From contig JAJRWX010000046.1 in NCBI GenBank assembly GCA_024276605.1, positions 1 through 50,740 of the forward strand: 50,740 bases of DNA. The letters run 5' to 3'. The notes under the pieces were generated by a model. The model was not told where the DNA came from and did not search any database. It saw nothing but the letters and a program-made list of their open reading frames with translations. The position numbers and the translations under genes were made by a program. Each line of letters begins with the position of its first letter. Positions within the stretch are counted from its first letter, which is position 1. The stretch comes from Planctomycetota bacterium. GTDB taxonomy: Bacteria; Planctomycetota; Phycisphaerae; UBA1845. Below, in pieces: positions 1-17,455 of this stretch.

Positions 1-66
1 AGGTCTGGCCAGGATATAGCCCCAAAGACATCCGCCAAGAAAAAACTTGAGGAAAAGAAGCTATGA
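1..66 (+). CDS. C-terminal tail of a possible IstB-like transposition helper ATPase (5' end outside window)
   Basis: Frame 1 is open from the window edge to a TGA at 64-66 and encodes 21 residues, ending in a lysine/glutamate-rich tail (AKKKLEEKKL). IstB proteins of IS21 elements often end in a short basic tail close to the right terminal repeats. There is no ATPase motif within the visible part, so the identity rests only on its position directly before IS21-like terminal repeats. It could equally be the end of an unrelated protein. Confidence 0.25.
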   Translation, partial: RSGQDIAPKTSAKKKLEEKKL

Positions 67-85
67 GGTATAAGAAGGAAACAAC

Positions 86-133
86 CACTGGCCGGTTTTA
101 ACCCGCCCATCAGTGGCTGGTTTTAACCTGCCC
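86..133 (+). repeat. Two tandem 23-bp repeats, IS21-type terminal repeats
   Basis: The units at 86-108 and 111-133 share the pattern CA[CG]TGGC[CT]GGTTTTAACC[CT]GCCC and differ at three positions, with a 25-bp period. Repeated transposase-binding sites of this kind are typical of IS21-family ends. Confidence 0.6.
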
Positions 134-140
134 GGTGACA

Positions 141-1347
141 GTAATGAAGCATCTTCTCTTAATTTGCGATTCAACGTGACAATGTTTCCTGTATTCAGTT
201 TCTGTTTATTCGTGGACTTTGTAAACAGGTACTCATCGTGCCGGCGGTACTCGTCAGACGACATATAAGCTTTAATAGCTTTAGCAGTTTCACTCCAGAC
301 AATAGCTACTCGTATGACTCCATCTTTCTCACGATAGCTATCTAGTACCATCTTTTTCAAATCAATATCCTCATGCCTCATATCCGTCACTTCTTTTGCG
401 TGAAGAGCAAAATTAGCTGCGGATAAGTAGATAGCTTGAGCCAGTAGTGAATGTTTGTGCGCTTGAGCCAACATGAGCCGAAACGTCTAAGGAGCCATAG
501 GTTTGGCGTTTGAGCGGTTAGCTTTGTTTTTCTTATCAAGACTCCAATTTTGACAATTCAAGCGAATCTCAAGTTTTAAGTTGTTTATCTTAGTTCTGTG
601 TTCAGGGTAAATAGCATATGCGTGGGATAGTATACCTTGGACAATCTTGTAGTGATTTTTTTGAGTACGTAACGCATATCTTCCTTCAATCACTTTTTTA
701 TACGCTTGAAGCTTGACGTTCTCCACGTCTTCCAAGTTGTCCACAACAACAGTATTCATAAACAACTTCCACGTACCCTTAGCGTCTGTAGGCTGTTTTG
801 TTGTACCAAACGTCTTATCTGACAAGTACCTATCAATAATCTCTTGTAAGCCAAGTGGAGCCGTTACAGGTGGCAATGAGTGGATATGTTGTAACTCAGG
901 TATACCTACAAGTTCCGCAAACTCTTTTCTTGTAACTGGATTACCAAGTTGCTCACGTACAAACTCAGCTAAGCTATCCCTACCAATTTGAATAGCGTTA
1001 ATGCCACCATTAGCGTCAAAGGTGGCCACAACAGGCAACGGCTCACCAAACTCATCATATACAGGTTTAGTGACTCGTATGTTTATAACGTCAGTCGGAG
1101 TTTGTCCCTGAATCCAACATTCATGTTCGTAGATAGCTCGACGCAAGTAAGCCAGTCCTACCCTTCCAGTTTTGAGATAAAAATGTCGAGTACGTTTATC
1201 CTCAGCTATCCTGTAGTACCGTCCACTTGCTTTGTGGATTCGTAACCCTTCAACAGGTACTCCAGTATCCGGGTGAAGGACAAAAGCTACAGGTTGTCTT
1301 CCACCTGTACGTTTTTTTGAATGCTTGAATTTTTGCGTTTTTGTCAT
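141..1347 (-). pseudogene. Tyrosine recombinase (integrase), broken by an in-frame TAG and truncated by an IS end
   Basis: The minus-strand frame starts at ATG 1347, preceded by a GGGAG ribosome-binding site. The first 286 residues contain an N-terminal arm-like region and an alpha-helical core-binding domain (about residues 185-275). The frame then meets TAG at 487-489 and continues, without a shift, into a segment that starts TFRLMLAQAHKHS and contains the recombinase motif ending KEVTDMRHEDIDL. Related integrases read KPxTPEEFRxxL across this point, so a Glu or Gln codon probably became TAG. The usual first catalytic Arg position is His here, as in some planctomycete integrases where it is also not conserved. 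The His-x-x-Arg and Tyr boxes are missing because homology stops near 141 at the IS21-like end. The gene should be inactive. Confidence 0.7.
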
Positions 1348-1585: not shown

Positions 1586-4500
1586 TTAGGGCACAAACTC
1601 GAAAGCCCCTACGTCGTACTCAGCCGATTGGCTTCCATCGCCATCAACCGGTCTTAGAACCCCCAGCATATCCTCAAATACCGTCGGCAACGCCGCACCA
1701 GCATCGATGGCTGGCGACCCGCTTTGCAGGCGGAAGTCCAACGAGGATGGGCTGACGAAAAGTGGGTTGTCGAACGAGAAGTTGTTACCGGTGATGGTTC
1801 CAACGACCGTACCAACGGCTGCCGCTGATCCATTAGGTGCTGACACAAGCATATTGAAAATCTCATGTCCCGACCCCTCTGTGATAGTGCATCCAACCAA
1901 ATTTCCGCCCCCATCGCTACGGTAAGCAGTATTGTTGTAGACATGAATTCGCTGTGGTGTGGGTTCAATACCCCAGCGGAAAACAGACACAAGCTTGAAG
2001 TTCCCAGCGCCCGTGGCGTCAGCGACATTGTTACGAATTGTCACGTCTCTCGCGCTGATGTGGAATCCCGTGCGGGTGCGCGGAGTCGGTTCGATGACGT
2101 TCCGCTCGATAAGCACATCCAGAACTGGTTCATTATTAATGGGATCCTGCGGACCTACTGAAACGGTCCATTGGTCGCCTCGGAAACGATTGTTAGATAT
2201 GACGATATATTGCGAAGGCTGTGTGCCAGCATTCGGTGATCTGTGAAGCTTCAGTGACAGTCTGCCCGTCTTAGCAGGATCGAGCAAAAGATTGTGGCTA
2301 ATAACGCATCGCTGGGTACTCCAAACGCGCAGGATGTGCTCACCGCTCCGAACGACGCCCACGCAACGATTTCCGAGAATTGCTAGACGCGTCGCACCGA
2401 AGAAAATGTTGTTTCCCTTCCCATTGGTCGTTCCGTTTCGGCTTATGTCGCAATCGACGAAGAAGTCATGGTCGTGCGTGATCGGTCTTGGCCAGGTTGT
2501 GTTTTCGATCCCGCTCCCGAAACTGTGGATGTTCAGTCGCAGGCATAGAAGCCACTTAATTGGGGCGGCTGTATTGCCAACACCATACGAGATATTCGAA
2601 CCTTGAATTCCAGCCAATTCCAAATCCATGATACGCCAATCGGCGCCATTGATTCTGAAGCCGCTCTGGTTGGATACCATCCGAATGATCGGTTTTGGAT
2701 TTGCTGTATTGCCATAGGCACCGATAATACCAGGCCCATTAACATTGATCGCTCCACCCGTACTGTCAAAAGTATCTCCCCGCAAGAAGAGGATGCGCAC
2801 ATTCGTGCGCAACATCGACATCGCCTTACCGAACGTTTTGAAAGGTGCGGATGTGGTTAGGCCGCTGTTGCTGTCGGAGCCCGCGTTGTTGGCTACATAA
2901 TAGGTCGTCCCAGACCATTCGTTGACCGTGATAACTTGCTGCATTTGACTGACGCCGCCTGCTGCGTCAGTGACGGTAAGCGTTACTGTGTAATCTCTAG
3001 ATGAAACACCGCTAGGCAGTTCAAAAACGTGGCCTGCCACTGGACCTTTTGCAAGGTTGGCGTCTACGCCTGGACGTTGCGTAAATCCGGCGCCGGGATC
3101 ACCAAATTCCCATGCGTAATCCAGGTCATGAAAAGGTCGTGTCGTTGTTGAGCTTGTCGTTCCTACGGCGTCGAAGAACACAGCCAACGGAGAGACGCCC
3201 GTTGTACGGCTTGGTACCATGGTAATGTTTGGCCCTGAACCGCTAGCCCCAACCGTCATCATGACTGTGACTATGCTCGCCGTTCCCGCACTGGGTGTCA
3301 CGGTAATCTGTCCCTGGTAGGCACCATCTGCCAACCCCGTTCGATCGACAACGGCCGAGATCGTGTCACGCTCCCCTGTACTATCACCACTGCTCGGCGA
3401 AACTGTCAGCCAGCTTGCATCGTCGCTGAGCGTGTAAGAAAGTGTACCGCCGCCGGAATTCCAAACGTCAAACTGACGGTTCGAGCCGGTTAAGCTAAAA
3501 TTCAAGCTTGTCGAGCTCAGTGACAACGTCGGTGGTTCGCAACCGTCCGGAATACCATTGCCGTTACTATCTATGGTGTCATCAAAGCCGGGGCATACAT
3601 CGAGACAGTCAACCACGCCGTCGTTATCGCTGTCTATATCAGCAACGCCGGGACATTGATCGACACAATCCGCGACGCCGTCCCCATCCGAGTCCGTGTC
3701 GGGCACGCCACACCCACACATGCCGGGAGTTGTTTTATTGGCATCAGAAGGACATGAATCGTTGCAGTTCTCCACACCATCCCCATCTGAATCAACCCCG
3801 TCACAGGCTTGCGTGATGATCAATTCAGGCGCATTAGTTCCCTCACGTGTGGTCAAAGCCATATAGTCCGAGCCGCGATGCGTAAAGTTGAGTGTAAGTG
3901 TATTGTTGCCTTGTTGTTCAGCTTGAACTTGTGAGCTGATATCGATTGAGACCCATCCGATATTGATTGAAGAGAATGTCGTGATGAGCTGATTGGTGGC
4001 CGGTGCATTGTTCCACGTAATCGTGGATTCGCTCCATCCATCATCAACGTCAGCCCCGGTCCAAACTTCAACCGGCGATGTACCTGTATTTTCCACGTAA
4101 AGGCGAAGTTGCGCGTCAGTTGCTACACCTGTGATGGCGGATAAGTCAAAGCGCACATATCCTTCGATATTCCAATCTCCGCCGTTTCCTACCACTCCCA
4201 TAAATGCGTCGTTGCCGTAATTTGTATTGGCAAACGTGCCGCTACGGATCTGAGCATCAACCACAGGATTAAGCGTGGTAGAGTTAGACGCATTCGTGCA
4301 TGTGTCCGCAACACCGTCGTTGTTCGAGTCAATATCAGGCAGACCGCAACCACATAATCCGGGGCTGGTCTTCGCAGGGTCACTGGGACAATTGTCGTTG
4401 CAATCTGCGGTTCCGTCCGCATCGGTGTCAGTGTCTGCCACGCCACATCCACAGTCACCAGGCTGAGTTTTCAACACATCATTTGGACAGGCGTCGTTGC

Positions 4501-5671
4501 AGTCCGGTGTACCATCACTGTCGCTGTCCGTATCCGCAATACCACATCCACAAACGCCGGGGTCGGTTTTATTAGGATCGTTTGGACAATTGTCTACCGG
4601 TGTGTTGGGATCGGTGTCAGGTGTCTGACTCAGTACAGTCACGACCACATTGTCAAATGCGGAAAGTCCTCCATCTTGGACAAACAAAGCAAACTCCAAG
4701 GTCGTAGAAGCGCCACTGATATTTGGTGCTGTAAAGCTTGCCACGGCGCTACCCGGGGTGTTGAGCGTGACTGCAGGGCCTAGTAATTGCGTCCACTGGT
4801 AAGAAGCTTGACTGCTTGCATTGCTCCCGCTCCCATCCAGCGTCACTAAAGAATCAGCCGTTACGGTCATATCAGATCCTGCGTCAGCGATATATTTGAC
4901 GGGCGATCCGCCGGCAGATGCTAATACCGTGATGGAAACAGTATCCTGTACGGTGCTCAAACCGTCACTGACGGTGAGTACAAATTGCAACGTTGTATCT
5001 GTATCAATCAAGGGAGCAGTAAAGCTCGCCACTGCCCCATTCACGTTGTTAAGTTGAATGGCAACAGCCGCCCCTGTTTGGGACCAAACATAAGTGATGG
5101 CATCATTATCCGGGTCGCCGCTATTTGACCCATCCAATAGCACTACTTCACCACCATTAACAACCTGATTAGGCCCAGCCAGCGCTGTAGGAGGTGATCC
5201 TATTGCAGGTATGTCAACCTCAAGGCTCAGTGTAAACACTGGTGAATCATTAATGTCGTAAGCCGTTACGACGACCAAGTACAATCCGGGGTCACTAAAT
5301 TGCCTACTATGCGTCGTACCGGTGAAGAGTTCGCCGGTGCCGAAATCCCATTCGAAGCGTAAGTTGTTTGAAACCTGCGTGCGCTTCGAGACTACCTCAA
5401 AAAGCCTAAGGCCTGGTTGAGTGGCGTCTTCTGTGGATACGATGAAATAATCATCAGCAGATTCAGTACTCGCAGTTGAAAGAAGTGTGTCACCGTTGGT
5501 AATGCTGGTGTCATCAGCAATAATCGTGCTTCCCAAGGTGCCGTTGTCCGTGGTGTTACCATCGGCCACGGAATTACATCCGCTCAACGCCATGGAAGCA
5601 GCGACAACTGTCAAGACCGCTACCGATAGTGTGTATTGCCCAAGATAACGTATAGAATATATACGATTCAT
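1586..5671 (-). CDS. Giant multidomain secreted lipoprotein with PKD-like, thrombospondin type 3, DNRLRE-like, BACON-like and beta-helix regions
   Basis: The 1361-residue product starts with a hydrophobic signal and a lipobox (ALSGC, Cys at about 32), so it should be a surface lipoprotein. Residues about 65-150 look PKD-like. Two immunoglobulin/PKD-like repeats follow (about 155-255 and 258-350), with the GSNSGDPDNDAITYVWSQTG signature. Calcium-binding thrombospondin type 3 repeats of the form DxDxDGxxDCxDxCP occupy about 355-460 and again 625-720. A DNRLRE-like domain (about 465-625), a BACON-like domain (about 720-815), a further PKD domain (about 815-920) and a right-handed beta-helix (about 925-1361) complete it. 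The last region opens with YYVANNAGSDSNSG and ends with the AIDAG...DVGAFE pattern seen in secreted parallel beta-helix proteins. Such proteins often bind or degrade polysaccharide, but no catalytic residues could be assigned. It is transcribed alone. Confidence 0.8.
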   Translation of the reverse strand: MNRIYSIRYLGQYTLSVAVLTVVAASMALSGCNSVADGNTTDNGTLGSTIIADDTSITNGDTLLSTASTESADDYFIVSTEDATQPGLRLFEVVSKRTQVSNNLRFEWDFGTGELFTGTTHSRQFSDPGLYLVVVTAYDINDSPVFTLSLEVDIPAIGSPPTALAGPNQVVNGGEVVLLDGSNSGDPDNDAITYVWSQTGAAVAIQLNNVNGAVASFTAPLIDTDTTLQFVLTVSDGLSTVQDTVSITVLASAGGSPVKYIADAGSDMTVTADSLVTLDGSGSNASSQASYQWTQLLGPAVTLNTPGSAVASFTAPNISGASTTLEFALFVQDGGLSAFDNVVVTVLSQTPDTDPNTPVDNCPNDPNKTDPGVCGCGIADTDSDSDGTPDCNDACPNDVLKTQPGDCGCGVADTDTDADGTADCNDNCPSDPAKTSPGLCGCGLPDIDSNNDGVADTCTNASNSTTLNPVVDAQIRSGTFANTNYGNDAFMGVVGNGGDWNIEGYVRFDLSAITGVATDAQLRLYVENTGTSPVEVWTGADVDDGWSESTITWNNAPATNQLITTFSSINIGWVSIDISSQVQAEQQGNNTLTLNFTHRGSDYMALTTREGTNAPELIITQACDGVDSDGDGVENCNDSCPSDANKTTPGMCGCGVPDTDSDGDGVADCVDQCPGVADIDSDNDGVVDCLDVCPGFDDTIDSNGNGIPDGCEPPTLSLSSTSLNFSLTGSNRQFDVWNSGGGTLSYTLSDDASWLTVSPSSGDSTGERDTISAVVDRTGLADGAYQGQITVTPSAGTASIVTVMMTVGASGSGPNITMVPSRTTGVSPLAVFFDAVGTTSSTTTRPFHDLDYAWEFGDPGAGFTQRPGVDANLAKGPVAGHVFELPSGVSSRDYTVTLTVTDAAGGVSQMQQVITVNEWSGTTYYVANNAGSDSNSGLTTSAPFKTFGKAMSMLRTNVRILFLRGDTFDSTGGAINVNGPGIIGAYGNTANPKPIIRMVSNQSGFRINGADWRIMDLELAGIQGSNISYGVGNTAAPIKWLLCLRLNIHSFGSGIENTTWPRPITHDHDFFVDCDISRNGTTNGKGNNIFFGATRLAILGNRCVGVVRSGEHILRVWSTQRCVISHNLLLDPAKTGRLSLKLHRSPNAGTQPSQYIVISNNRFRGDQWTVSVGPQDPINNEPVLDVLIERNVIEPTPRTRTGFHISARDVTIRNNVADATGAGNFKLVSVFRWGIEPTPQRIHVYNNTAYRSDGGGNLVGCTITEGSGHEIFNMLVSAPNGSAAAVGTVVGTITGNNFSFDNPLFVSPSSLDFRLQSGSPAIDAGAALPTVFEDMLGVLRPVDGDGSQSAEYDVGAFEFVP

Positions 5672-7143: not shown

Positions 7144-8322
7144 ATGATTGATTTGTTGATGGCTAGACAACTACAAGATTGCATCCGTCGCGTGTGGCAC
7201 GCGGTGTTAATGACTTCTCTGATTCTGTGGTGTTTCGGTTGTTCGACTAAGGATCACAGGATTTCCGTTTCCCAACTGTTGGAATTGGAAGCCTCAGAGC
7301 TACAGAAGTTGGCATCCGAAAAAGAACAGTCAGCTACTACGGATGTTGTCAAAATCAATCGACAACTTGGTCCTTATCGCGCTGGGCCTAATGATGTACT
7401 TACCATTACATTAACACGGGCCGATCAACCCGCATTATTTCCGCCTACACCGTTTCGCGTGGACAAAAAAGGTGAAATAGAATTACCTGTTGTCGGGTCT
7501 GTTAGCATTGAAGGTTTGGAACTGGATGAGATCGAAGACAAAATACGCGCAGCCTACGTGCCGGGTGTGCTTACTGATGCAGTAGTCCATACAGATGTCC
7601 TCACTCCAGAAACAACGAACGTGCTAGTCATCGGGGCGGTCAGTACACCTGGGCTGATTGCTTTGCAGCGTCATGAACGCAACCTATTATATGCGATTGT
7701 TGGAGCCGGCGGTGTATCTGATATTGCTTCCGGAGAAGCTACTCTTCAGCGCATTCGTCAGCCGGGTCAGTTGCAGACATTTAATCTTCGTGATCCAATA
7801 GAATTACAACAGGCCGTAGCTCTACAGCCGTTGGAACAAGGCGATATCATTCAGGTTCGAGCAGCCACACCCAACACGATCTACGTCGGCGGTCTTGTTG
7901 CTGGGCCATCTCCACAAGCGTATCCTACAGGCGTGAGGGTATCCGTATTGCAAGCGCTAGCCGGGGCGGGCGGTCTGCGTACCGACATTTATCCTAAAGA
8001 AGGCACGCTAGTGAGACGTCTTCCTAGTGGTCGAGAAGTGCATGTTCGGCTCGACTTGGACCGTATAGCATTAGGACAAGACAAAAATCTCGAACTCATA
8101 CCCGGGGATATTCTTTGGGTACCGTTTACGTGGGAGACACGATTGCAGGAGTTTATCAACCGGAATTTCTTCATGCGGGCTGGTGTGTCAGTTAATTACA
8201 GCGTACGAGGCACTGAATTTCTTAATCGTTCAGGTAGATCGGGCGCTGGAGGTCTGCAAGACTCGTTTGATCCATTCGGGTTCTTGGGTAGAAATTCGGC
8301 ATTGCAGAGCCTAACTCCATAG
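7144..8322 (+). CDS. Polysaccharide export outer-membrane lipoprotein (Wza/OtnA family)
   Basis: The 392-residue product has a signal peptide ending in a lipobox (CFGC, Cys about 33). A Poly_export domain covers about residues 76-150 and starts with the family hallmark GPYRAGPNDVLTITL. At least two SLBB-like beta-grasp segments follow: about 155-230 (VLVIGAVSTPGLIAL) and 245-320 (IYVGGLVAGPSPQAYP...GVRVSVLQALAGAGG). Proteins of this family form the outer-membrane channel for capsule or exopolysaccharide. The usual partner tyrosine kinase/chain-length protein and glycosyltransferases are absent next door, so this is an orphan copy or the operon has been cut by the GC-rich block that follows. 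The preceding NusG paralogue suggests control by antitermination. Confidence 0.85.
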   Translation: MIDLLMARQLQDCIRRVWHAVLMTSLILWCFGCSTKDHRISVSQLLELEASELQKLASEKEQSATTDVVKINRQLGPYRAGPNDVLTITLTRADQPALFPPTPFRVDKKGEIELPVVGSVSIEGLELDEIEDKIRAAYVPGVLTDAVVHTDVLTPETTNVLVIGAVSTPGLIALQRHERNLLYAIVGAGGVSDIASGEATLQRIRQPGQLQTFNLRDPIELQQAVALQPLEQGDIIQVRAATPNTIYVGGLVAGPSPQAYPTGVRVSVLQALAGAGGLRTDIYPKEGTLVRRLPSGREVHVRLDLDRIALGQDKNLELIPGDILWVPFTWETRLQEFINRNFFMRAGVSVNYSVRGTEFLNRSGRSGAGGLQDSFDPFGFLGRNSALQSLTP

Positions 8323-8325
8323 CTC

Positions 8326-8420
8326 CACACAGAGCGCGTCTTCGTTCGCGTATCTAACATGTGCATAGTTCGATGTTAGCTGAGGTGCACTGGCCTGACA
8401 GGATAATAGTGGGCAGCCTA
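8326..8420 (-). pseudogene. Remnant copy of the 3' end of the subtilase gene
   Basis: Read on the minus strand this segment ends ...CTSANIELCTC then TAG at 8354-8356. That matches the last residues of the subtilase at 15620 (...STSANIELRTR, TAG). Similarity continues about 30 bases past the stop into a short hairpin at 8326-8338, and the hairpin-to-stop distance is identical in the two places. I see no more of the protease upstream (towards 8690). It is therefore a fragment, not a gene. Confidence 0.7.
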
Positions 8421-8690
8421 CTTTTTTGTCTTACACGGCTTGTCGAGAATGGCTAAGTAAACTTGGCGGTGGTCGTCATAAAAAAACACGTCCTGGCAGT
8501 GGTTGTCGCGTTGTTATGATATGGTAGTGAACAAACGGAATAACAATTTGTGCGACGAGGTATGAGTAGATTCTACCCTCACCTTTGATTGTATCAATTT
8601 AATAGTTGGCTGTCCCCGGTATACCCTGGCAGGTTTTCGAGTGTCCGGTGACCACCTTCGCCAGCAGAGTGTGGCTGAGGAGCAGTAGAT
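8421..8690. other. Intergenic stretch, no gene recognised
   Basis: This 270-bp region follows the subtilase-tail remnant and precedes the GC-rich propeller lipoprotein gene. No gene, terminator or inverted repeat is convincing. The change from the roughly 47-50 percent GC of the left flank to the high-GC block occurs across it. Confidence 0.4.
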
Positions 8691-9809
8691 ATGCTGATGA
8701 TCCGATCTGTAACAAATGTTTCTTGGCCGGTAGTTTTGACGTTGGCTTTGGCCCCGGTCATTGGTGGTTGTATCGGAGGAGGGAGCGACAATGGCCTCGG
8801 GAGCGACGACCTCCGTGGGGCGTCGCGGACGGATGCGGCGAGCCTGCTCTACTCGGCCACCAGCCCAAGTGGGCCGAAGGCAAGCGCCCAGAACGCGGCC
8901 TTCTCCCCCAACGGGGACCAGATCGTCTTTACTGTGTTCCGCAACGGTTACAACAAGGGACCGGCTGAACTCTGGATTATCAACCTCGACGGCACCGACG
9001 CTCACCGGATTACGCCCAGCGAGGACCAGGACAGCGTCAACGTCCCCGGCGCCGCCTGGAACGCGGTCCGCGACGAGATTGTGTTCGCCTCGGATCGAGA
9101 GGAATCCGACGACATCTGGACGATTCGCCCCGACGGTTCCGGACTGCGCCGGGTCACCACGCACTCCGAACCTCCCTATTGGATCGAACCTGTTTGGTCA
9201 CCGGACGGCGCGTGGATTGTGTTCGAATCCGATACCGAGGCTGCCACCGAACTCGCCCAGCGCGGCACGATCTACAAAGTGCGTTCTGACGGCTCGGATC
9301 TGACCCAGCTCACTAAACAGGCTGGCCAGGACTTCGACGATCGCTTGCCCAACTGGTCCCCCGACGGCGATCACATTCTATTTCAACGCCGTATACCTTC
9401 CGATGGTGAGGGCGACACGTGGGATATTTATGTCGTTGATGCCGGCGGAGACGACACCATCAACGTGAGTGGCGCTGCCGAGTACTTCAACACGGACAAC
9501 TCCTGGTCAACGGACGGACGCTGGATTGCAAGTTCGTCGGAGTACCCCGTCGAGGGCGACCGACTGCCGATACCCAACATCATCGGTTTCTTCTTCCCGG
9601 ATGAGGAGGCGCCTGGTGAGCCAAACGCGCCCGTGCGAATTACTTCGAGTGACAACCGCGAGGATGGCGCCCCTTCGGTTTCGCCGGATGGCTGCTGGGT
9701 CGCCTTCGAGAGTCACCAAACCGAAGACGAGCAATCCCCTAGCAATCTCTGGCTCATCGCGACACCCGCGGCACTGCAACCCGATAACCACAACTGCGCG
9801 AGTCCGTGA
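8691..9809 (+). CDS. Lipoprotein with a TolB-like/PD40 beta-propeller
   Basis: The 372-residue product has an N-terminal hydrophobic segment with a lipobox (VIGGC, Cys about 27). It then shows repeated propeller blades of the TolB/WD40-like (PD40) type, each with a pattern such as AAFSPNGDQIVFT, PVWSPDGAWIVFES, PNWSPDGDHILFQ and PSVSPDGCWVAFES, plus 'LWIINLDGT' or 'IYKVRSDGS' strands. Six blades can be counted roughly. Such propellers usually mediate protein contacts at the cell surface or in the periplasm; there is no sign of a peptidase domain. A GGAG ribosome-binding site lies 8-11 bases before the start. The coding sequence is strikingly GC-rich: the 60 bases from 9001 contain 42 G or C. 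Confidence 0.8.
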   Translation: MLMIRSVTNVSWPVVLTLALAPVIGGCIGGGSDNGLGSDDLRGASRTDAASLLYSATSPSGPKASAQNAAFSPNGDQIVFTVFRNGYNKGPAELWIINLDGTDAHRITPSEDQDSVNVPGAAWNAVRDEIVFASDREESDDIWTIRPDGSGLRRVTTHSEPPYWIEPVWSPDGAWIVFESDTEAATELAQRGTIYKVRSDGSDLTQLTKQAGQDFDDRLPNWSPDGDHILFQRRIPSDGEGDTWDIYVVDAGGDDTINVSGAAEYFNTDNSWSTDGRWIASSSEYPVEGDRLPIPNIIGFFFPDEEAPGEPNAPVRITSSDNREDGAPSVSPDGCWVAFESHQTEDEQSPSNLWLIATPAALQPDNHNCASP

Positions 9810-10082
9810 TGCCCAACACTGTCGGAACAGCCCGCGAGCCCATTGATCAGTGCCGCGCGAATAGCCGATGACCTTCTGTTTCTCACTGTGCAGCCTTGGT
9901 CCACGCCGCAACGGTCGCAGACAGCTTTCGAGGTAGCCCCGCTGAGGCATTACGTGTGCCACATACATAACCGGACGGTTACGAAGAGCCCAATTGATTC
10001 AGACCGTTACTTGGTTGGATAACAGGTATGGGATGGACAGCGGTTTCCTTGAGTCACAATTCCAACGATAGGGAATGACGCA
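9810..10082. other. Intergenic stretch between convergent genes
   Basis: No gene recognised. Small frames here are antisense shadows or lack start signals. The region leads into the terminator hairpin at 10083. Confidence 0.4.
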
Positions 10083-10129
10083 GCCCCCGGGCTCGCTTCT
10101 AATTAGCGAGACCGAGGGCAACGCTTTTT
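10083..10129 (+). terminator. Rho-independent terminator with a 15-bp stem
   Basis: The arms at 10083-10097 and 10105-10119 pair at 13 of 15 positions (GCCCCCGGGCTCGCT against AGCGAGACCGAGGGC), with a 7-base loop. They are followed by five T residues at 10125-10129. It sits between two convergent genes. The T-run is on the plus strand, so it best serves the propeller lipoprotein gene, although it starts about 270 bases after the stop codon. Confidence 0.65.
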
Positions 10130-10150
10130 AGCTTGGCGGTTCGCCGCCAA

Positions 10151-11779
10151 CTACTCGACGGTATAGTCTTCCCTTCGAATTCCATCCGCCCCGTCTGTAA
10201 CTTCGACGGCATTGGGATTCATTCCACCCCGGCCCGGCTCGCCCAGATCGAATATGTTGCCCCGACCGCTCCAATTGCTTTGGGCATCCTTGACGATTCC
10301 GATCGTCGGACCACCGCCACCACTACCACTTGCCGCACCGTTGCCACCCGTCCCGCCGGCACCTCCGTCGCCACCTTTTCCCTGTGCTCCGCTCCTCTCA
10401 CCGCCACTGCCACCTTTCCCTCCTGTGCCGCCTACACCCTCAGCGCCCCCCGCGCCGCCGTTACCTCCGTCGCCCGATGTGATTGTGTTGTCGGTGAATT
10501 CCGCGTCCGAATTGTTGCTGAGTAGGATGGCTATCGAAGCGCCGCCACCCTGACCTCCCATGCCATTCTCACCGGCAAATCCACCGCCACCACCTCCGCC
10601 ACCGCCGCCACCACAGGCGAAGACGATTGCACCTCCTCCGCCTCCGCCTCCGCCGCCACCGGCGCCATTGGTCTGGAAGCCACTACCGTCGGCTCCATCG
10701 GCGGTGACGTACTCCCCCTCGCTTACAAGACCGATTGACTCACCTCCGACACCCGGATTCTCTGCCGCAGTACCGTCTGTACCCTTGCCACCGATCGCGC
10801 CATCTGTGCCGGTTGCCCCGCCGGACCCGCCTCCACCTCCCGTAACGGATTCATTGACTTCAGTTCCGCCTGCGCCGTTGAACCCGCCGGCTACACCGCC
10901 GGTGCCGCCGACGCCGCCGGTGAAGGAGCCGTCGGTCGACCCACCACGGCCACCAACATTGTCGGGAGGACATGAGGCGGCCATGTTTCCGGCGCCTCCG
11001 TCGGGGCCTGCAGCGCCATTGGCACCTTTCGCGCCAGCCACACCGTCAGCGCCGTTGCCCGCGGTTAGCATGTTGTTACGGATGGTGACGAGTCGGCTGT
11101 CGCTGAGGCTGATGACAACGGAACTCTCACCCGGTGCGACTCCGTCCGCACTCGATATCCGAAAATTCTCCATGGTCACCAATGTTACCCCGATGCCCGA
11201 CACTGCCTTGGGGCCGCCTTCGAGCGTTGTGGGAAAGTTTTGCTCGTCGAGAATCCAGGTACTCGGGTTGTAGCTCCCGATGACGCTCACTTGGCTGCGT
11301 AGGGTGAGACTCTCGACGTAAAATCCGCCAGCGACATAAACGCTCCCTCCGCCGTTTTCAGCAGCGGCTTCGATTCCCGCCTGGATAGATGCAAAAGGTG
11401 TGGCCTGCCTACCGGCGTTTTCGTCATCGCCCACGATACGATTGACGAAAAAGTTGCTCTCAATGTCAGGTACGCCTTGTTCGCCACCGGGCTCAGGCTG
11501 GCAGGTGTCGCTCTGCTCATCGCAGACCTCGCCGGATGTACAGGGCGCGTTGCCCGAGACGCAAGTATCGTTGTTGGACGTTTCCATGCCGTTACAGAAC
11601 AGACCGTCGTCGCAGTCGACTTCGGCATCCGGAGAAGGAAGGGGCGATGGCGTGTCCGTGTCACGACTGCTGGATGCTCCAATGCTCCCCACAGGTTGGT
11701 TACCACAACCCGCCATCCCTGCCGCCATAAGGCAGGACAGAAACATCCCGAAGTTCGATTTTCTTTTTCTCTTCTGCAT
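10151..11779 (-). CDS. Cell-surface lipoprotein with Cys-rich module, DUF1565-like beta-helix start and long glycine-rich region
   Basis: I place the start at ATG 11779, because an AAGGG site precedes it and a clean signal peptide with lipobox follows (MAAGMAGC, Cys about 25). The longer frame from 11905 has no such signal. A Cys-rich stretch (CDDGLFCNGMETSNNDTC...GEVCDEQSDTC) is followed by a DUF1565-like beginning of a beta-helix (NRIVGDDENAGRQATPFASIQAGIEAA). About 280 residues dominated by Gly-Gly-x repeats come next, including uninterrupted runs of 10 and 11 glycines. The end (about 520-541) returns to ordinary sequence. The layout recalls glycine-rich surface proteins of planctomycetes and myxobacteria. 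Its function is unknown; it may be structural or adhesive. It is GC-rich and probably part of the inserted block. Confidence 0.7.
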   Translation of the reverse strand: MQKRKRKSNFGMFLSCLMAAGMAGCGNQPVGSIGASSSRDTDTPSPLPSPDAEVDCDDGLFCNGMETSNNDTCVSGNAPCTSGEVCDEQSDTCQPEPGGEQGVPDIESNFFVNRIVGDDENAGRQATPFASIQAGIEAAAENGGGSVYVAGGFYVESLTLRSQVSVIGSYNPSTWILDEQNFPTTLEGGPKAVSGIGVTLVTMENFRISSADGVAPGESSVVISLSDSRLVTIRNNMLTAGNGADGVAGAKGANGAAGPDGGAGNMAASCPPDNVGGRGGSTDGSFTGGVGGTGGVAGGFNGAGGTEVNESVTGGGGGSGGATGTDGAIGGKGTDGTAAENPGVGGESIGLVSEGEYVTADGADGSGFQTNGAGGGGGGGGGGAIVFACGGGGGGGGGGGFAGENGMGGQGGGASIAILLSNNSDAEFTDNTITSGDGGNGGAGGAEGVGGTGGKGGSGGERSGAQGKGGDGGAGGTGGNGAASGSGGGGPTIGIVKDAQSNWSGRGNIFDLGEPGRGGMNPNAVEVTDGADGIRREDYTVE

Positions 11780-12074
11780 ATCCCAATTCCCTTCTATTGC
11801 TCGTGGCCCGGCAAAAGCCGGATTCAATTTACCCGCGAAGACACCTTCAACGGGGGCACACGGTTGTCGAGCGTGTTGGCCTTCATACTCAATCACGCAA
11901 ACCACGATTTGGAGCCATCAAGAAAAATGTGTATTTTCCTTAAACTTACGAGATTGGCCGGCTAGTCATTCAGCAACCCAGTCCATCGGCCCCAACGATC
12001 TCGAAGCATGCTTAAAGTGCACGGTGTGCCCGTCCTCCAGCCATACTTGGCGTTGGTCTGCGAATGGTGAACCG
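11780..12074. other. Intergenic region between divergent genes
   Basis: It lies between the glycine-rich lipoprotein (minus) and the sigma factor (plus). A 60-residue minus-strand frame (11966-12148) overlaps the sigma start. It contains a phrase like ADQRQVWLEDGHTVHFKH, weakly reminiscent of the DGH motif of prepilin-like proteins. It has no ribosome-binding site and crosses the promoter, so I do not call it a gene. Confidence 0.4.
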
Positions 12075-12103
12075 TTGAAATATGTGCAAGCGGCGAATAT
12101 AAT
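12075..12103 (+). promoter_or_regulatory. Sigma-70-type promoter of the ECF sigma-kinase operon
   Basis: A TTGAAA box at 12075-12080 and a perfect TATAAT box at 12098-12103 are separated by 17 bp. Transcription would begin about 12110, some 25 bases before the start codon at 12135. Confidence 0.65.
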
Positions 12104-12116
12104 CGTATTGAATACG
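12104..12116. promoter_or_regulatory. 13-bp palindrome on the transcription start of the sigma-kinase operon
   Basis: CGTATT-G-AATACG is a perfect palindrome immediately after the -10 box. A repressor bound here would block initiation, so I infer an operator. No regulator gene is visible nearby. Confidence 0.4.
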
Positions 12117-12134
12117 TAATGGGCCGCGTTTGAG

Positions 12135-12728
12135 GTGTTATCTTTCATGCAGGATTCATCCCCCGATCAGATAACACAGATTCTCTCACGTGCCCAAAAA
12201 GGCGAAACAAGGGCTATCGAACAACTTCTACCACTCGTTTATGGGGAGCTGCGTGCCCTTGGAGCCAGTTATTTCCAGCAGCAAAGCCCGGCACACACAC
12301 TCCAACCCACCGCCTTGGTCCACGAGGCCTTTGTGAAACTTATGGGACCAGGCACTATCAAATGGGAAAGCCGAGCCCATTTCTTCGCCGTCGCCGCCAA
12401 GGCCATGCGTCACATACTGACCGACCACGCCCGCCGTAAGAAAGCCGCCAAGCGTGGTGGTGCTGCTGCACAGAAGGTGACCCTCTCCGGTCTGAGCACG
12501 CCCTCTACTGAAAATCAGATTCATCTGATCGCCCTCGACGAAGCCCTTTCCAAGCTCACTGCTATTGACGCCCGCCAAAGTGACATCGTCGAAATGCGTT
12601 TTCTGGCCGGCCTGAAGGTAGAAGAAGTCGCGAGTGTTCTGAAAATCTCCACTGCTACGGTGGAGCGCGAATGGCGCATGGCTAAAGCATGGCTTAAGCG
12701 CGAATTGGGCGGAGGTAAGCCTACATGA
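12135..12728 (+). CDS. ECF RNA polymerase sigma factor (TIGR02999-like, planctomycete type)
   Basis: The 197-residue product has region 2 with the hallmarks of this group (ELRALGASYFQQQSPAHTLQPTALVHEAFVKL...ESRAHFFAVAAKAMRHILTDHARR). A C-terminal region 4 helix-turn-helix follows (DIVEMRFLAGLKVEEVASVLKISTATVEREWRMAKAWLKREL). It should direct RNA polymerase to a specific regulon. The stop codon overlaps the next ATG in an ATGA arrangement, so kinase and sigma factor are translationally coupled. There is no anti-sigma factor. In this group the adjacent Ser/Thr kinase is thought to control the sigma factor, probably by phosphorylation. A second in-frame ATG at 12147 is an alternative start. Confidence 0.9.
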   Translation: MLSFMQDSSPDQITQILSRAQKGETRAIEQLLPLVYGELRALGASYFQQQSPAHTLQPTALVHEAFVKLMGPGTIKWESRAHFFAVAAKAMRHILTDHARRKKAAKRGGAAAQKVTLSGLSTPSTENQIHLIALDEALSKLTAIDARQSDIVEMRFLAGLKVEEVASVLKISTATVEREWRMAKAWLKRELGGGKPT

Positions 12729-15304
12729 GCACTGATCGCCAACAACGAATTAAAGATCTCTTTTTTGGCGCCTTGGAATTGGAACCCGATGCCCGTGCTT
12801 CATTTCTCGACGCCGCCTGTCGCAATGATCCGGACCTCTATCGCGAAGTGCTTTCGCTACTATCACATGATCAAGACACTATGGATGCCCTTAGCGACGA
12901 TGAACTCGACGTCGTACGCGAAGCCTTCGTCGATGCCATCGAATCCAGCGTCAAGGACTCCACATCACCCAATCGGCCTGATGCGGCGGACCCAATGCCG
13001 GAACTTATCGACCGCTACAAACTCCTCCAGAAAATCGGCGAGGGCGGCTTCGGCGTTGTCTACATGGCCGAACAGCAGGAACCGGTCCGGCGTAAGGTCG
13101 CCCTGAAGATCATCAAGCTTGGGATGGACACCAAACAAGTGATCTCCCGCTTCGAGGCCGAGCGGCAGGCGTTGGCGATGATGGATCATCCCAACATCGC
13201 CAGCATATTCGATGGCGGAGCGACGGACACGGGCCGGCCTTATTTCGTCATGGAACTGGTCGCAGGTGTGCCGTTCACGCAGTATTGTGACGAAAACAGC
13301 CTCAGCACGCGCGAGCGGTTGGAACTGTTCGTGCCGGTCTGCCGTGCCGTACAGCATGCTCATCAAAAGGGTGTCATCCACCGCGACATCAAGCCGTCGA
13401 ACGTCCTCATCACGCTGCACGACGGCGTGCCGGTCCCCAAGGTGATCGACTTTGGCATTGCCAAGGCGACGCGTGGCCGGCTCACTGAGAAGACGCTGTT
13501 CACCGAATTCAACCAGTTTGTTGGTACGCCAGCTTACATGAGCCCGGAGCAGGCGGAACGCTCCAACATCGACATCGACACGCGTAGTGATGTTTACTCC
13601 CTCGGCGTGCTATTGTATGAGTTGCTGACCGGAACGACGCCGTTCGATGACACCACCCTCAAGCAAGCCGCCTTCGATGAAATATTGCGTATCATTCGTG
13701 AGGAGGAACCTCAGCGTCCCTCCTTGCGTCTGAGCACTTTGGGAAATCGTCTTTCAGACGTGGCTCGCCGGCGACGAGTGGACCCCAGCAGGATCAGTCG
13801 AGTTGTCCGCGGCGACTTGGACTGGATCGTTATGAAAGCTCTGGAGAAAGACCGGCAACGCCGCTACGACTCAGCAGGTGCTTTTGCAGACGATGTGGCC
13901 CGACACTTGTTCGACGAGCCGATCTCCGCCGGACCCCCGAGCGTCGTCTATCGCTTCCAAAAATTCTCTCGGCGACATCGCGGGGCGATATTCGCGGGCG
14001 GTTTTGTGGCTACGGCATTGGTTCTCGGGCTGGCATTGGCCACTATTGGATTGATCCGAGCGGTACGAGCCGAAGCCGATGCGCTGGCCGCGCAGAATCG
14101 CGCAGAGCGTGAAGCGAAAATCGCTCGCGCGGTCAATGAATTTCTTAACGAAGATCTGCTCGCGGGAGTGGACCCCAACCGCACCGCCAATCGCGACATC
14201 ACGATGCGCGAAGTGCTCGACACAGCGTCTGAGAAAATTGAGTATCGCTTCAAAGATCAACCTGTGGTCGAAGGGGCGATTCGCACGATGCTCGGCAAAA
14301 CCTACCGCAATCTGGGCGCTTACGACGAAGCGGATAAACATCTGAAAAGGGCCGTGCAGCTTCGCGCAGAGGCGCTCGGCGAAGAGCATCTCGACACGCT
14401 TCGCGCCATGAATCATCTGGCTTTTCTGCATGATGTACAAGGACGGCTGAAGCAAGGCGAAACGTTGCACGCCAAAGTGCTGAGGATTCGCAGGGCATCG
14501 CTTGGCGGGGAGCACAGAGATACGCTGGCGTCGATGAACAACCTTGCTCAGAACTATATTGATCAGAACCGATATGACGAGGCCGTACCACTTTTCAAAG
14601 AGATACTAGACATCCGCCGGCGCATCTTGGGAATCGACGATCCCGATACGCTTCTTTCCATGAACAATCTGGCCTCGGTCTATTGGGATCAAAAGCGATT
14701 TGACGAAGCCGAGCCTCTCTACGTCGCTACGCTCGAAGCTCGCCGCCGCGTCTTAGGCGACGATCATCCTCACACCATCAACTCCATCGACAACCTTGGC
14801 ACTCTCTATCATATGCAAGGCCGGCTCGACGCGGCTGAGCCTCTCTATTTGGAGGCTAGAGAACGCTGCCTTCGAGTACTTGGTCCGGATCATCCAAAAA
14901 CGTCGACGTCTCTAAATAACCTCGCGGTGCTTTACTACAGTCGCCAGCAGTACGAGCAGTCGGCCTCCTATTTCGCGGAATCTATCGCCGCACAGCGTCG
15001 AACCCTTCGCGTCGGCCACTGGCGCATTGGGGCGGCATTGTCAAATAGCGGTGGATGTTTGCTAAAACTGAACCGACTTGAGGAGGCTGAAGCATCGTTG
15101 CTTGAATCCTATCAAATTCTATCTGACTTCTTCCATCCACGGCACAAGCGTGCACTTCGTGCCGCGAGCTATTTAGCCGATCTGTACAAGACATGGAACA
15201 AGCCGGAAGAAGCCGCGCGCTGGGCGGAAAGAATGCATGCCGAAGCAAGCCCGGAGACTCTTCGTGCATTGGGCGATTCCACCGACAATTCTAGCGATCG
15301 TTGA
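12725..15304 (+). CDS. Transmembrane Ser/Thr protein kinase with C-terminal kinesin-light-chain-type TPRs
   Basis: The 859-residue product has an N-terminal helical segment (1-95) and then a Hanks-type kinase domain (about 97-370). The glycine loop is GEGGFGVVY, the ATP-binding Lys is about 128, the catalytic loop is HRDIKPSN with Asp about 221, and the DFG motif is at about 242-244, so all catalytic residues are present. A membrane helix lies at about 420-444. After it come at least five 42-residue TPRs of the kinesin-light-chain kind (MNNLAxxYxxQxRYDEAxPLFxExLxIRRRxLGxDHPDT), through about 810. The kinase domain should be cytoplasmic and the TPRs on the other side of the membrane, where they could sense a partner. 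It overlaps the sigma gene by 4 bases. Confidence 0.92.
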   Translation: MSTDRQQRIKDLFFGALELEPDARASFLDAACRNDPDLYREVLSLLSHDQDTMDALSDDELDVVREAFVDAIESSVKDSTSPNRPDAADPMPELIDRYKLLQKIGEGGFGVVYMAEQQEPVRRKVALKIIKLGMDTKQVISRFEAERQALAMMDHPNIASIFDGGATDTGRPYFVMELVAGVPFTQYCDENSLSTRERLELFVPVCRAVQHAHQKGVIHRDIKPSNVLITLHDGVPVPKVIDFGIAKATRGRLTEKTLFTEFNQFVGTPAYMSPEQAERSNIDIDTRSDVYSLGVLLYELLTGTTPFDDTTLKQAAFDEILRIIREEEPQRPSLRLSTLGNRLSDVARRRRVDPSRISRVVRGDLDWIVMKALEKDRQRRYDSAGAFADDVARHLFDEPISAGPPSVVYRFQKFSRRHRGAIFAGGFVATALVLGLALATIGLIRAVRAEADALAAQNRAEREAKIARAVNEFLNEDLLAGVDPNRTANRDITMREVLDTASEKIEYRFKDQPVVEGAIRTMLGKTYRNLGAYDEADKHLKRAVQLRAEALGEEHLDTLRAMNHLAFLHDVQGRLKQGETLHAKVLRIRRASLGGEHRDTLASMNNLAQNYIDQNRYDEAVPLFKEILDIRRRILGIDDPDTLLSMNNLASVYWDQKRFDEAEPLYVATLEARRRVLGDDHPHTINSIDNLGTLYHMQGRLDAAEPLYLEARERCLRVLGPDHPKTSTSLNNLAVLYYSRQQYEQSASYFAESIAAQRRTLRVGHWRIGAALSNSGGCLLKLNRLEEAEASLLESYQILSDFFHPRHKRALRAASYLADLYKTWNKPEEAARWAERMHAEASPETLRALGDSTDNSSDR

Positions 15305-15591
15305 TCCGGTGTTTCCTGGCCACGTAGTGAAACTTCGGTTTCTCGAGTTTGGTAGCATGCCAAATGTTCTATGAAATGGCAGTGTGAGTGGCGAGCTGAA
15401 GACGCGGGTCGCTGTCGCTCGCCGCTCGGATTTGGCGAACCAGGTTGTTGTCTATTCCGCACGATTTCTTATCAGTGGCGTTCGACATTCTTTCACGATT
15501 TGATGAGACTGCGATCATCGACTCCCCCACTTCACATGAGATGGGTCACCCAGCCCCCGCTCGAAAATGATATGGGCAACCCACATAACTC
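15305..15591. other. Intergenic region between convergent genes
   Basis: No gene recognised. Two similar 17-base phrases at about 15535 and 15568 (ATGAGATGGGTCACCCA and ATGATATGGGCAACCCA) are present and each contains a TGGG...CCCA inverted core. The higher GC of the kinase gene falls off within this stretch. Confidence 0.4.
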
Positions 15592-15604
15592 CACGCGAAG
15601 CGTG
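15592..15604 (-). other. Short hairpin after the subtilase stop codon
   Basis: CACGC and GCGTG arms flank a 3-base loop, 15 bases downstream of the subtilase stop on the minus strand. The equivalent position beside the remnant at 8326-8338 keeps the pairing in RNA through two G-U pairs. It may be a 3' end or processing structure. Confidence 0.4.
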
Positions 15605-15619
15605 TCATCGTTCGTATAG

Positions 15620-17455
15620 CTAACGAGTGCGTAGTTCTATGTTGGCTGAGGTGCTTTTGCCGGTCAGGTCTGTCAGTATTAATGTGATGGTGTGCATACC
15701 GGCAGGGACGTTGCGCGTACGCCATAGGTAGGAAACCTCTGCCTTGGTGCCACCAACCGGCGAGGCGAATACGCTTTGCCCATTTATCAGCCATTCCACC
15801 GTAGCTAACCCCAACTTTGCGCTGACCTCAGCCTCTATCTGTACGCTACTGCCGACGGTTGCGCGATTGTTCGGTGAAGTGAATCGAATACCCGGTGAAT
15901 TATTACTACTGCTACCACTGCTCGATCCCCGGAATCGAATGTTGATCGTGACGGGTTTGGAAGCGTTTCCATTAGTATCTGTTGCGACGATTGAAATGGT
16001 GTGTTGTCCACCTTCAAACAATGCCGTATCGACGACGAATCGATAAGGCTTGCGCGTGTCGGTGCCGGTGGGAACACCATCGATCGACATGACTACATCC
16101 GCCACACCCCAACGATCGGTTGCGCTCACCACAATACGCGATCGCCCTGATAGCGTGCTACCGGCTGATGGGCTGGTGATTCGAACTGTTGGGGGTTTGT
16201 TGTCCGGTTCGGCTATGGTATCTGCCGCGGCTTGCACTACCGCGGCTGCGTCGATAAGACCATACCCGTATGTTGAATCCTTACCTCTACTTCCAAGATC
16301 GATCGCTGTGTCGGAGAGAATGCTTTGTATGGTCGCTGGGCGGAGTGACGGATTGGCTGACCAAGCTAGTGCCACGATTCCCGAAACGATGGGTGCGGCG
16401 AAGGAAGTGCCATTGGCTGTACGGTAGCCTGAACCTAGAGACGTCGATTGAATACTTACACCTGGAGCTACCAAATCAACGAAAGGTCCACGATCCGAAA
16501 ATGCAGCTATGCGATCTGAACCATCGACCGCCCCGACGAATAGCGCTTCCGGATAGCCGCCGGTTTTGCTTTTGCCTCCCGCATTGCCTGCGCTAATGAC
16601 CACCATGCCACCTCGGTTGAAAACATGCTGAGCCGCAGCTTTAATGACCTTATTAGACCATAGCGGCGCGAAGCTCACATTGATAACCTTAGCGCCATTA
16701 GCCTGTGCCCACATGATGCCGGCGGCTAAGTGACGGCTCGTACTATCGCCGTTCTCGTTGGTGGCTTTGACCGCTACGATGGGTGAGTCCCAAGCTAGTC
16801 CTACTACGCCACGGCGGTTGTTACTTTCGGCAGCTATAATCCCCGCTACCTGGGTACCATGTCCGGCGATATCGTCGTAGTCGTTGCTTGCATCAAAGAT
16901 ATTATAGCCGTCGAGAATTTTGTTTCGTAGGTCAGGGTGGCTTATGTCGATTCCGGAATCGACTACACCGATGACCATGTCTTCATCGCCGGTTGTTATA
17001 TCCCACGCCTCTGTGGCGTTCACTTGTGGGAGGTGTGGCTGAAGCCGAAACAGTGGGTCGTTGGGAATAGACTGTGATGGTAGGATATAGTTCTTGTGTA
17101 CGGATTCAATAAGGCCGCTGTCGATAAGTGCGGTGGCAATGATTTCACGCATGTCCGGGTCGATGGAAATGGTGATTAGACCAAGCTCATTGTCTTGATC
17201 GATGATCGTGGTATCTAGTTGGGTAAACAGATCAGCCAATGAGGTGGCATCAGCCCCGGGAAGTGGCTGTAAGAGTAGCTCAGTGTCTACGATTTCCAAC
17301 GCTTGGTAGGCCGGGTCAGCGTCCTCAGGGAAGAGCGATTTTGTGTCAGTGAGTATGCCTTGCGGATCCAAAACGGAACCGCAACCCATTAGGTTGATCG
17401 AAGCAACCAAAATCAGGTAAGCAAGAAGATGATGCGTGTTAGCACGATAGCCCAT
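15620..17455 (-). CDS. Subtilisin-like serine protease (S8 family), lipoprotein with Ig-like C-terminal domains
   Basis: The 611-residue product begins with a lipobox signal (NLMGC, Cys 25) and has a propeptide-like region (about 45-125). The S8 catalytic domain spans about 135-415. The triad is visible: Asp166 in IGVVDSGID, His199 in GHGTQVAGI and Ser351 in NGTSFAAP, with the oxyanion Asn291 in SAGNAG. Two Ig-like bacterial surface domains follow (about 425-510 and 520-611), each starting with a PxVRITSP or PGIRFTSP phrase. It should act on the outside of the cell as an anchored protease. It is transcribed alone, converging on the kinase gene. A fragment of its 3' end recurs at 8326-8420. 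Confidence 0.92.
   Translation of the reverse strand: MGYRANTHHLLAYLILVASINLMGCGSVLDPQGILTDTKSLFPEDADPAYQALEIVDTELLLQPLPGADATSLADLFTQLDTTIIDQDNELGLITISIDPDMREIIATALIDSGLIESVHKNYILPSQSIPNDPLFRLQPHLPQVNATEAWDITTGDEDMVIGVVDSGIDISHPDLRNKILDGYNIFDASNDYDDIAGHGTQVAGIIAAESNNRRGVVGLAWDSPIVAVKATNENGDSTSRHLAAGIMWAQANGAKVINVSFAPLWSNKVIKAAAQHVFNRGGMVVISAGNAGGKSKTGGYPEALFVGAVDGSDRIAAFSDRGPFVDLVAPGVSIQSTSLGSGYRTANGTSFAAPIVSGIVALAWSANPSLRPATIQSILSDTAIDLGSRGKDSTYGYGLIDAAAVVQAAADTIAEPDNKPPTVRITSPSAGSTLSGRSRIVVSATDRWGVADVVMSIDGVPTGTDTRKPYRFVVDTALFEGGQHTISIVATDTNGNASKPVTINIRFRGSSSGSSSNNSPGIRFTSPNNRATVGSSVQIEAEVSAKLGLATVEWLINGQSVFASPVGGTKAEVSYLWRTRNVPAGMHTITLILTDLTGKSTSANIELRTR

Follow-up and report, generated by a model that had tools for sequence, protein, structure and literature searches.

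The window analyzed here is a stretch of 50,740 nucleotides of DNA from a Planctomycetota bacterium (contig JAJRWX010000046.1). Within it, a wza-like polysaccharide export gene and a subtilase gene converge on a GC-rich block of other genes, and both ends of this block carry a version of the subtilase gene tail. The features of the region, with the two flanking genes serving as anchors, are as follows:

7144-8322, plus strand: left anchor, gene for a wza-like polysaccharide export lipoprotein (Pfam Poly_export, 7.5e-14; SLBB; lipobox-like N terminus), which adjoins the subtilase gene in the related genomes G039 and G022
8318-8402, minus strand: copy 1 of the repeat, read as a relic of the old junction, with the wza-like stop, a 31-nt spacer, and the decayed end of the subtilase gene (its last 15 codons and stop)
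8403-15583, no strand: the putatively inserted block, set apart by GC, absent from the G039 and G022 junctions, with other content at this place in G024
8408-8422, plus strand: terminator-like hairpin and T run just outside copy 1 (consensus scan only; such sites are no commoner than in shuffled sequence)
8691-9809, plus strand: gene for a PD40 (TolB-like) beta-propeller lipoprotein (Pfam PD40, 6.5e-25; GC3, 0.71)
10151-11779, minus strand: gene for a Gly-rich surface lipoprotein of the DUF1565 beta-helix type (N-terminal part matching DUF1565, 1.6e-4), divergent from the sigma factor gene
12075-12103, plus strand: sigma-70-like promoter match ahead of the sigma factor gene (TTGAAA, 17 nt, TATAAT; 11 of 12 positions; consensus scan only)
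12135-12728, plus strand: gene for an ECF sigma factor (Sigma70_ECF, 2.5e-53; TIGR02999), with QPTAL replacing DAED in region 2.2
12725-15304, plus strand: gene for a Ser/Thr protein kinase that has a single TM segment and TPRs at its C terminus (Pkinase, 3e-47; TPR_10, 2.9e-66), the gene start overlapping the sigma factor stop
15584-15668, minus strand: copy 2 of the repeat, the live subtilase end and its downstream spacer (repeat search, alignment, blastn, and genome-wide model search)
15620-17455, minus strand: right anchor, gene for a subtilase lipoprotein with two Ig-like domains (Peptidase_S8, 1.8e-51; Big_7, 1.1e-27), 76% identical to its counterparts in G023 and G024

The block has a GC content of 57.3%, against 50.8% in the rest of the window, and outside the block every 7.18-kb stretch of the window stays at or below 52.9%. 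A preliminary description of this DNA had noticed higher GC between the two tails from four 60-base stretches, and its counts were right to within 1 base (42, 36, 28, and 29 instead of 30). The rise is real but uneven, with GC3 values of 0.71 for the PD40 gene, 0.61 for the DUF1565-type gene, 0.56 for the sigma factor gene, whose composition is raised only slightly, and 0.63 for the kinase gene, compared with 0.50 +/- 0.055 (maximum, 0.61) for genes elsewhere. The block thus shows the atypical composition expected of a genomic island. Codon-usage distance was also considered as proof of foreign origin and was rejected, since several native genes deviate equally in their synonymous usage; the composition check that had been proposed therefore bore out the raised GC and GC3 but not an unusual choice of codons.

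A repeat search of the window identified 8318-8402 and 15584-15668 as direct repeats of 85 nt that are 78% identical and spaced 7,266 nt apart. Using the left flank as a blastn query against the window, we recovered copy 2 with an E value of 7e-14, the next best match having a value of 0.77, and the local alignment score of the two tails was 75, whereas about 300 random pairs from the window reached a maximum of 33. The subtilase tail fragment previously described after the export lipoprotein gene is therefore real, with similarity beyond chance, although its start lies not at 8326 but at the wza-like stop, at 8318 (possibly 8313). The shared part comprises the last 15 codons and the stop of the subtilase gene (38 of 48 nt identical) and 36 nt past that stop (27 of 36 identical), ending at the wza-like stop. 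In copy 1, the wza-like stop (TAG, 8320-8322) is followed by the 31-nt spacer and then by the decayed subtilase end, whose tail peptide reads LSGQCTSANIELCTC before the stop, versus LTGKSTSANIELRTR in copy 2.

Both tails lie downstream of genes and between convergent transcription units, a position that would also suit a dispersed repeat or a conserved terminator or RNA element that would be no trace of an insertion. We rejected this explanation, to which we give almost no credence. A search with a sequence-only model of both copies found just these two in the 4.5-Mb genome, neither copy folds better than shuffled sequence on either strand, and the window has no Rfam match. Moreover, the repeat spans coding sequence in which the subtilase frame and stop are kept, and no such tail occupies the corresponding position in G024 or G023. 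The folding results also contradict the conserved downstream hairpin that had been proposed as part of the tail; the hairpin at 8408-8422 lies outside copy 1 and perhaps now ends wza-like transcription.

Copy 1 is closest to the window's own subtilase tail. Its coding part matches that tail at the 38 of 48 positions given above, versus 30 of 48 for G024 and 32 of 48 for G023, the two other sequenced species of the genus, and its spacer is alignable solely to the window's own spacer. Among the changes seen in copy 1 are Arg-to-Cys and Ser-to-Cys substitutions at residues kept by both G023 and G024. Thus, the duplication is specific to the window's lineage and postdates its split from G023 and G024, and, judged by its sequence, copy 1 is a relic of the former wza-like/subtilase junction. 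A misassembly that joined a block from another place or organism at the repeat is highly improbable. The genome is a draft of 110 contigs with an estimated contamination of 2.1%, and the block does differ in composition, but the divergence of the two copies, at 22% of positions, leaves no long shared word on which an assembler could have crossed over. Both copies, furthermore, carry the lineage's private spacer, and a mis-join would therefore leave the duplication itself unexplained.

The same site was compared among relatives. In G039 and G022, which belong to the same family but to other genera, the wza-like and subtilase genes are convergent and adjacent, with 45 and 87 nt between their stops, respectively, and without the block. 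The wider gene order is shared with the window in both cases, comprising nusG, wza-like, subtilase, and aldehyde dehydrogenase genes in G039 and subtilase, wza-like, and nusG genes and a homolog of the gene for the 1586-5671 protein in G022. The synteny check suggested earlier thus found the two anchors side by side without the block, and the proposal that they were once convergent neighbors is upheld both by these genomes and by copy 1, which keeps the junction with 31 nt between the stops. In the genus fellows, the block genes are missing at the junction and there is no tail relic. The anchors of G024 are convergent, with a single gene for a 1,533-aa beta-helix/PMP-repeat protein between them, and a search for tail repeats flanking that insertion found none. 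G023 has a beta-helix/PMP-repeat-like gene after its subtilase gene, but its wza-like gene is found on a different contig, beside a multicopper oxidase gene. The anchors of G023 and G024 are 84% identical for both genes, and those of the window are 73% and 76% identical to them. Both fellows have rearranged sites, so the comparison includes no very close relative with an undisturbed site. The junction has also been disturbed independently in sister species of the genus, and sites empty of the block, as expected for a genomic island, are seen as adjacent anchors in G039 and G022 and as different content in G024.

Two further observations concern the neighborhood of the anchors. Directly upstream of its wza-like gene, G024 carries an IS200-like (Y1_Tnp) transposase gene (L069:12467-13192), where other relatives have nusG. 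In several more distant genera (G020, G029, G032, G036, G037, G041, and L075), roughly 7 to 12 kb separate the wza-like gene from a subtilase relative, and the orientations are different; across the family, the pair thus remains close together without always being adjacent.

Considering the private copy 1 and the lack of the block in G039, G022, G023, and G024, we propose, with a probability of roughly 0.8, that the block was inserted in the window's lineage with duplication of the junction, much as the preliminary description had suggested for a segment of about 7.2 kb. In this model, the wza-like and subtilase genes would have started as convergent neighbors about 31 nt apart. After the lineage had diverged from G023 and G024, a 7.2-kb segment would have been inserted at the junction, bringing a rare beta-propeller lipoprotein gene and a surface-lipoprotein/ECF-sigma/Ser-Thr-kinase module. 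The event would have duplicated at least 85 nt of the junction, such that the subtilase gene retained its full tail at the right border while a decaying copy remained beside the wza-like gene.

Domain and family searches of the block ORFs found no integrase, transposase, or recombinase, the 7.2-kb block contains no tRNA, and the repeat search found no inverted repeats at the borders among pairs of at least 20 nt, so that neither the transposase nor the terminal inverted repeats of a transposon are present. The earlier label of genomic island is apt with respect to raised GC and empty sites in relatives, but it fits loosely for a block that measures 7.2 kb and lacks an integrase, a transposase, and a tRNA. 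Direct repeats holding the 3' end of a gene at both borders are the layout left by integrative elements, and the 85-nt repeats, which contain the subtilase 3' end and border a block of different GC, have this layout. They might accordingly represent the old attL and attR sites of a site-specific integrative element whose integrase has since been lost. We consider this unlikely, since the block differs from such elements in having no integrase, the repeats share just 78% identity and contain no long exact core, there is no further copy or other use of the site in the genome, and a partial tyrosine recombinase (61-474) sits 8 kb off, outside the repeats.

Insertion with junction duplication most likely followed one of two other routes. 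Recombination that involved no mobile-element enzyme of the block's own, with an incoming molecule carrying matching junction sequence, would be of the single-crossover type; alternatively, foreign DNA may have been captured at a staggered break that was then filled in. Either route would give a long direct duplication. Homology-facilitated illegitimate recombination (PMC3240628), in which joining relies on homology at one end, could likewise explain an enzyme-free insertion, but a single-ended event need not leave a direct duplication, unlike what is seen here. Our preference for any single physical mechanism is tentative and falls short of even odds. At the level of sequence, the former adjacency of the anchors, the presence of the block, the private duplication, and the decay of copy 1 are documented, and it is the mechanism of insertion that we infer, as the block contains no integrase or transposase. 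The block resembles small integrase-less islands between convergent genes in its different GC, its patchily distributed genes, and the empty sites in relatives; such captured islands usually lack a flanking repeat, whereas the block here has an 85-nt diverged junction duplication. The event is thus a well-documented insertion at a convergent junction and a fairly ordinary gene acquisition rather than a new kind of element.

Elsewhere in the window, about 140 bp at the contig start (window 1-160) are 99 to 100% identical to the ends of contigs C28 and C110 and to sequence near the end of C39. This repeat probably marks the place where the assembly broke and is possibly the end of a mobile element; the tyrosine-recombinase-like ORF at 61-474, which is truncated and low in GC, runs into it. 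A ComEC/Rec2-type competence protein with a metallo-beta-lactamase domain is encoded at 46561-49032; its presence would be consistent with DNA uptake without providing evidence for it.

With respect to the origin of the cargo, relatives of the PD40 protein occur in three other genomes of a 51-genome family sample (G007, 71% identity; G015, 68%; G018, 45%). Close relatives are confined to just two other family genomes and are lacking in the genus fellows G023 and G024; at E <= 1e-20 the protein is missing from 47 of the 51 genomes, and in the order sample it is found in 4 of 114 genomes at E <= 1e-60, the window's own included. In G015 (L092:1-7512), which belongs to another genus, the PD40 relative lies 4.8 kb beyond the subtilase 3' end, with a large PAS sensor histidine kinase gene between them and an orientation relative to the subtilase gene opposite to that in the window. 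A link between PD40 and subtilase genes may therefore be old, and this, together with the separation of the anchors in G023 and G024 as well, would suit a block that was ancestral in the genus and was lost or replaced in those two species, the tail copy stemming from a separate small duplication. We regard that history as very unlikely in view of the intervening kinase gene and opposite orientation in G015, the many family genomes missing PD40, the adjacent anchors in G039 and G022, and copy 1, which records direct adjacency in the window's own past. If the block was instead inserted, as we favor, the G015 arrangement may weakly suggest a donor in which PD40 likewise lay near a subtilase gene, albeit with different orientation and neighbors. 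A search of genome contigs for a donor of the whole block gave just the G007 PD40 relative, which has other neighbors, and comparison of the block's left spacer with sequence upstream of the PD40 relatives yielded nothing beyond a 12-nt match.

The remaining cargo belongs to a recurring family module, in which a DUF1565-type lipoprotein gene is divergent from genes for an ECF43-like sigma factor and a kinase with TPRs (window 10151-15304; L115, L108, L110, L100, L101, L102, and L105). Other members have different large proteins in the same divergent place, e.g., an FG-GAP protein in L095. DUF1565 homologs divergent from sigma-kinase pairs were found in C8 of the window's own genome (G000) and in G023, G024, G046, G048, G049, and G050. 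The genus has its own orthologous set (C8 of the own genome, G023:C9, and G024:C66), and another set is present in four g32 genomes. The window sigma factor is 67% identical to that of G034, about 60% identical to the g32 set, and 48% identical to the C8 paralog; in the sigma factor tree, the orthologs of the C8 paralog form a separate clade with full support, while the forks around the window sigma factor are weakly supported. The block therefore contains a second, non-orthologous trio. Kinase identities were uninformative as a test of origin, being 38 to 44% to all relatives and hence about equally distant. The patchy PD40 gene and a sigma factor that is not orthologous to the genus copy may indicate foreign ancestry, but the weak sigma forks and the equidistant kinase point to no donor.

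In ECF43 sigma factors, the missing acidic motif is offset by phosphorylation of a Thr at that place by the neighboring kinase (PMC8999054). The window sigma factor has QPTALVHEAF in region 2.2 where canonical ECF sigma factors have DAED, so that the acidic motif is gone and a phosphorylatable Thr is kept, and the kinase encoded alongside (12725-15304) has the catalytic motifs HRDIKPSN and DFG and a hydrophobic segment near residue 426. EcfP/PknT of Vibrio parahaemolyticus (ECF43; PMC8999054) is alike in having no DAED, a Thr in its place, and a kinase gene directly beside the sigma factor gene; the window kinase differs in having TPRs at its C terminus, and in this family a divergent surface-protein gene regularly lies alongside. 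The likeness to ECF43 is one of the region 2.2 motif and the kinase neighbor. We propose that the membrane kinase would phosphorylate the Thr in region 2.2 and that the phosphorylated sigma factor would then transcribe the divergent surface lipoprotein gene. By this analogy, the cargo would, somewhat more probably than otherwise, include a phosphorylation-activated, kinase-gated switch for a surface protein, as indicated by the lack of DAED, the overlapping membrane kinase gene, the 11-of-12 promoter match, and the recurring divergent lipoprotein gene.

A broader hypothesis, which we consider doubtful, is that surface-protein genes are exchanged repeatedly in this genus at the gap behind the wza-like gene and that the lipoprotein/ECF43-like sigma/kinase trio moves as a self-regulating, portable unit. 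The exchange site is suggested by three genomes, namely, by the PMP-repeat gene in G024, the DUF1565 and PD40 genes in the window, and the break-up in G023; a literature search on insertion hotspots between convergent genes found nothing.

In conclusion, this locus offers a cleanly readable case of gene gain in poorly studied bacteria, in which the old junction, its relic, the live copy, and the empty sites are all visible. It also illustrates that a genome can contain a second, non-orthologous set of a kinase-coupled ECF sigma module and the divergent surface protein that belongs to it, which may be one way in which planctomycete-like bacteria build large signaling repertoires.
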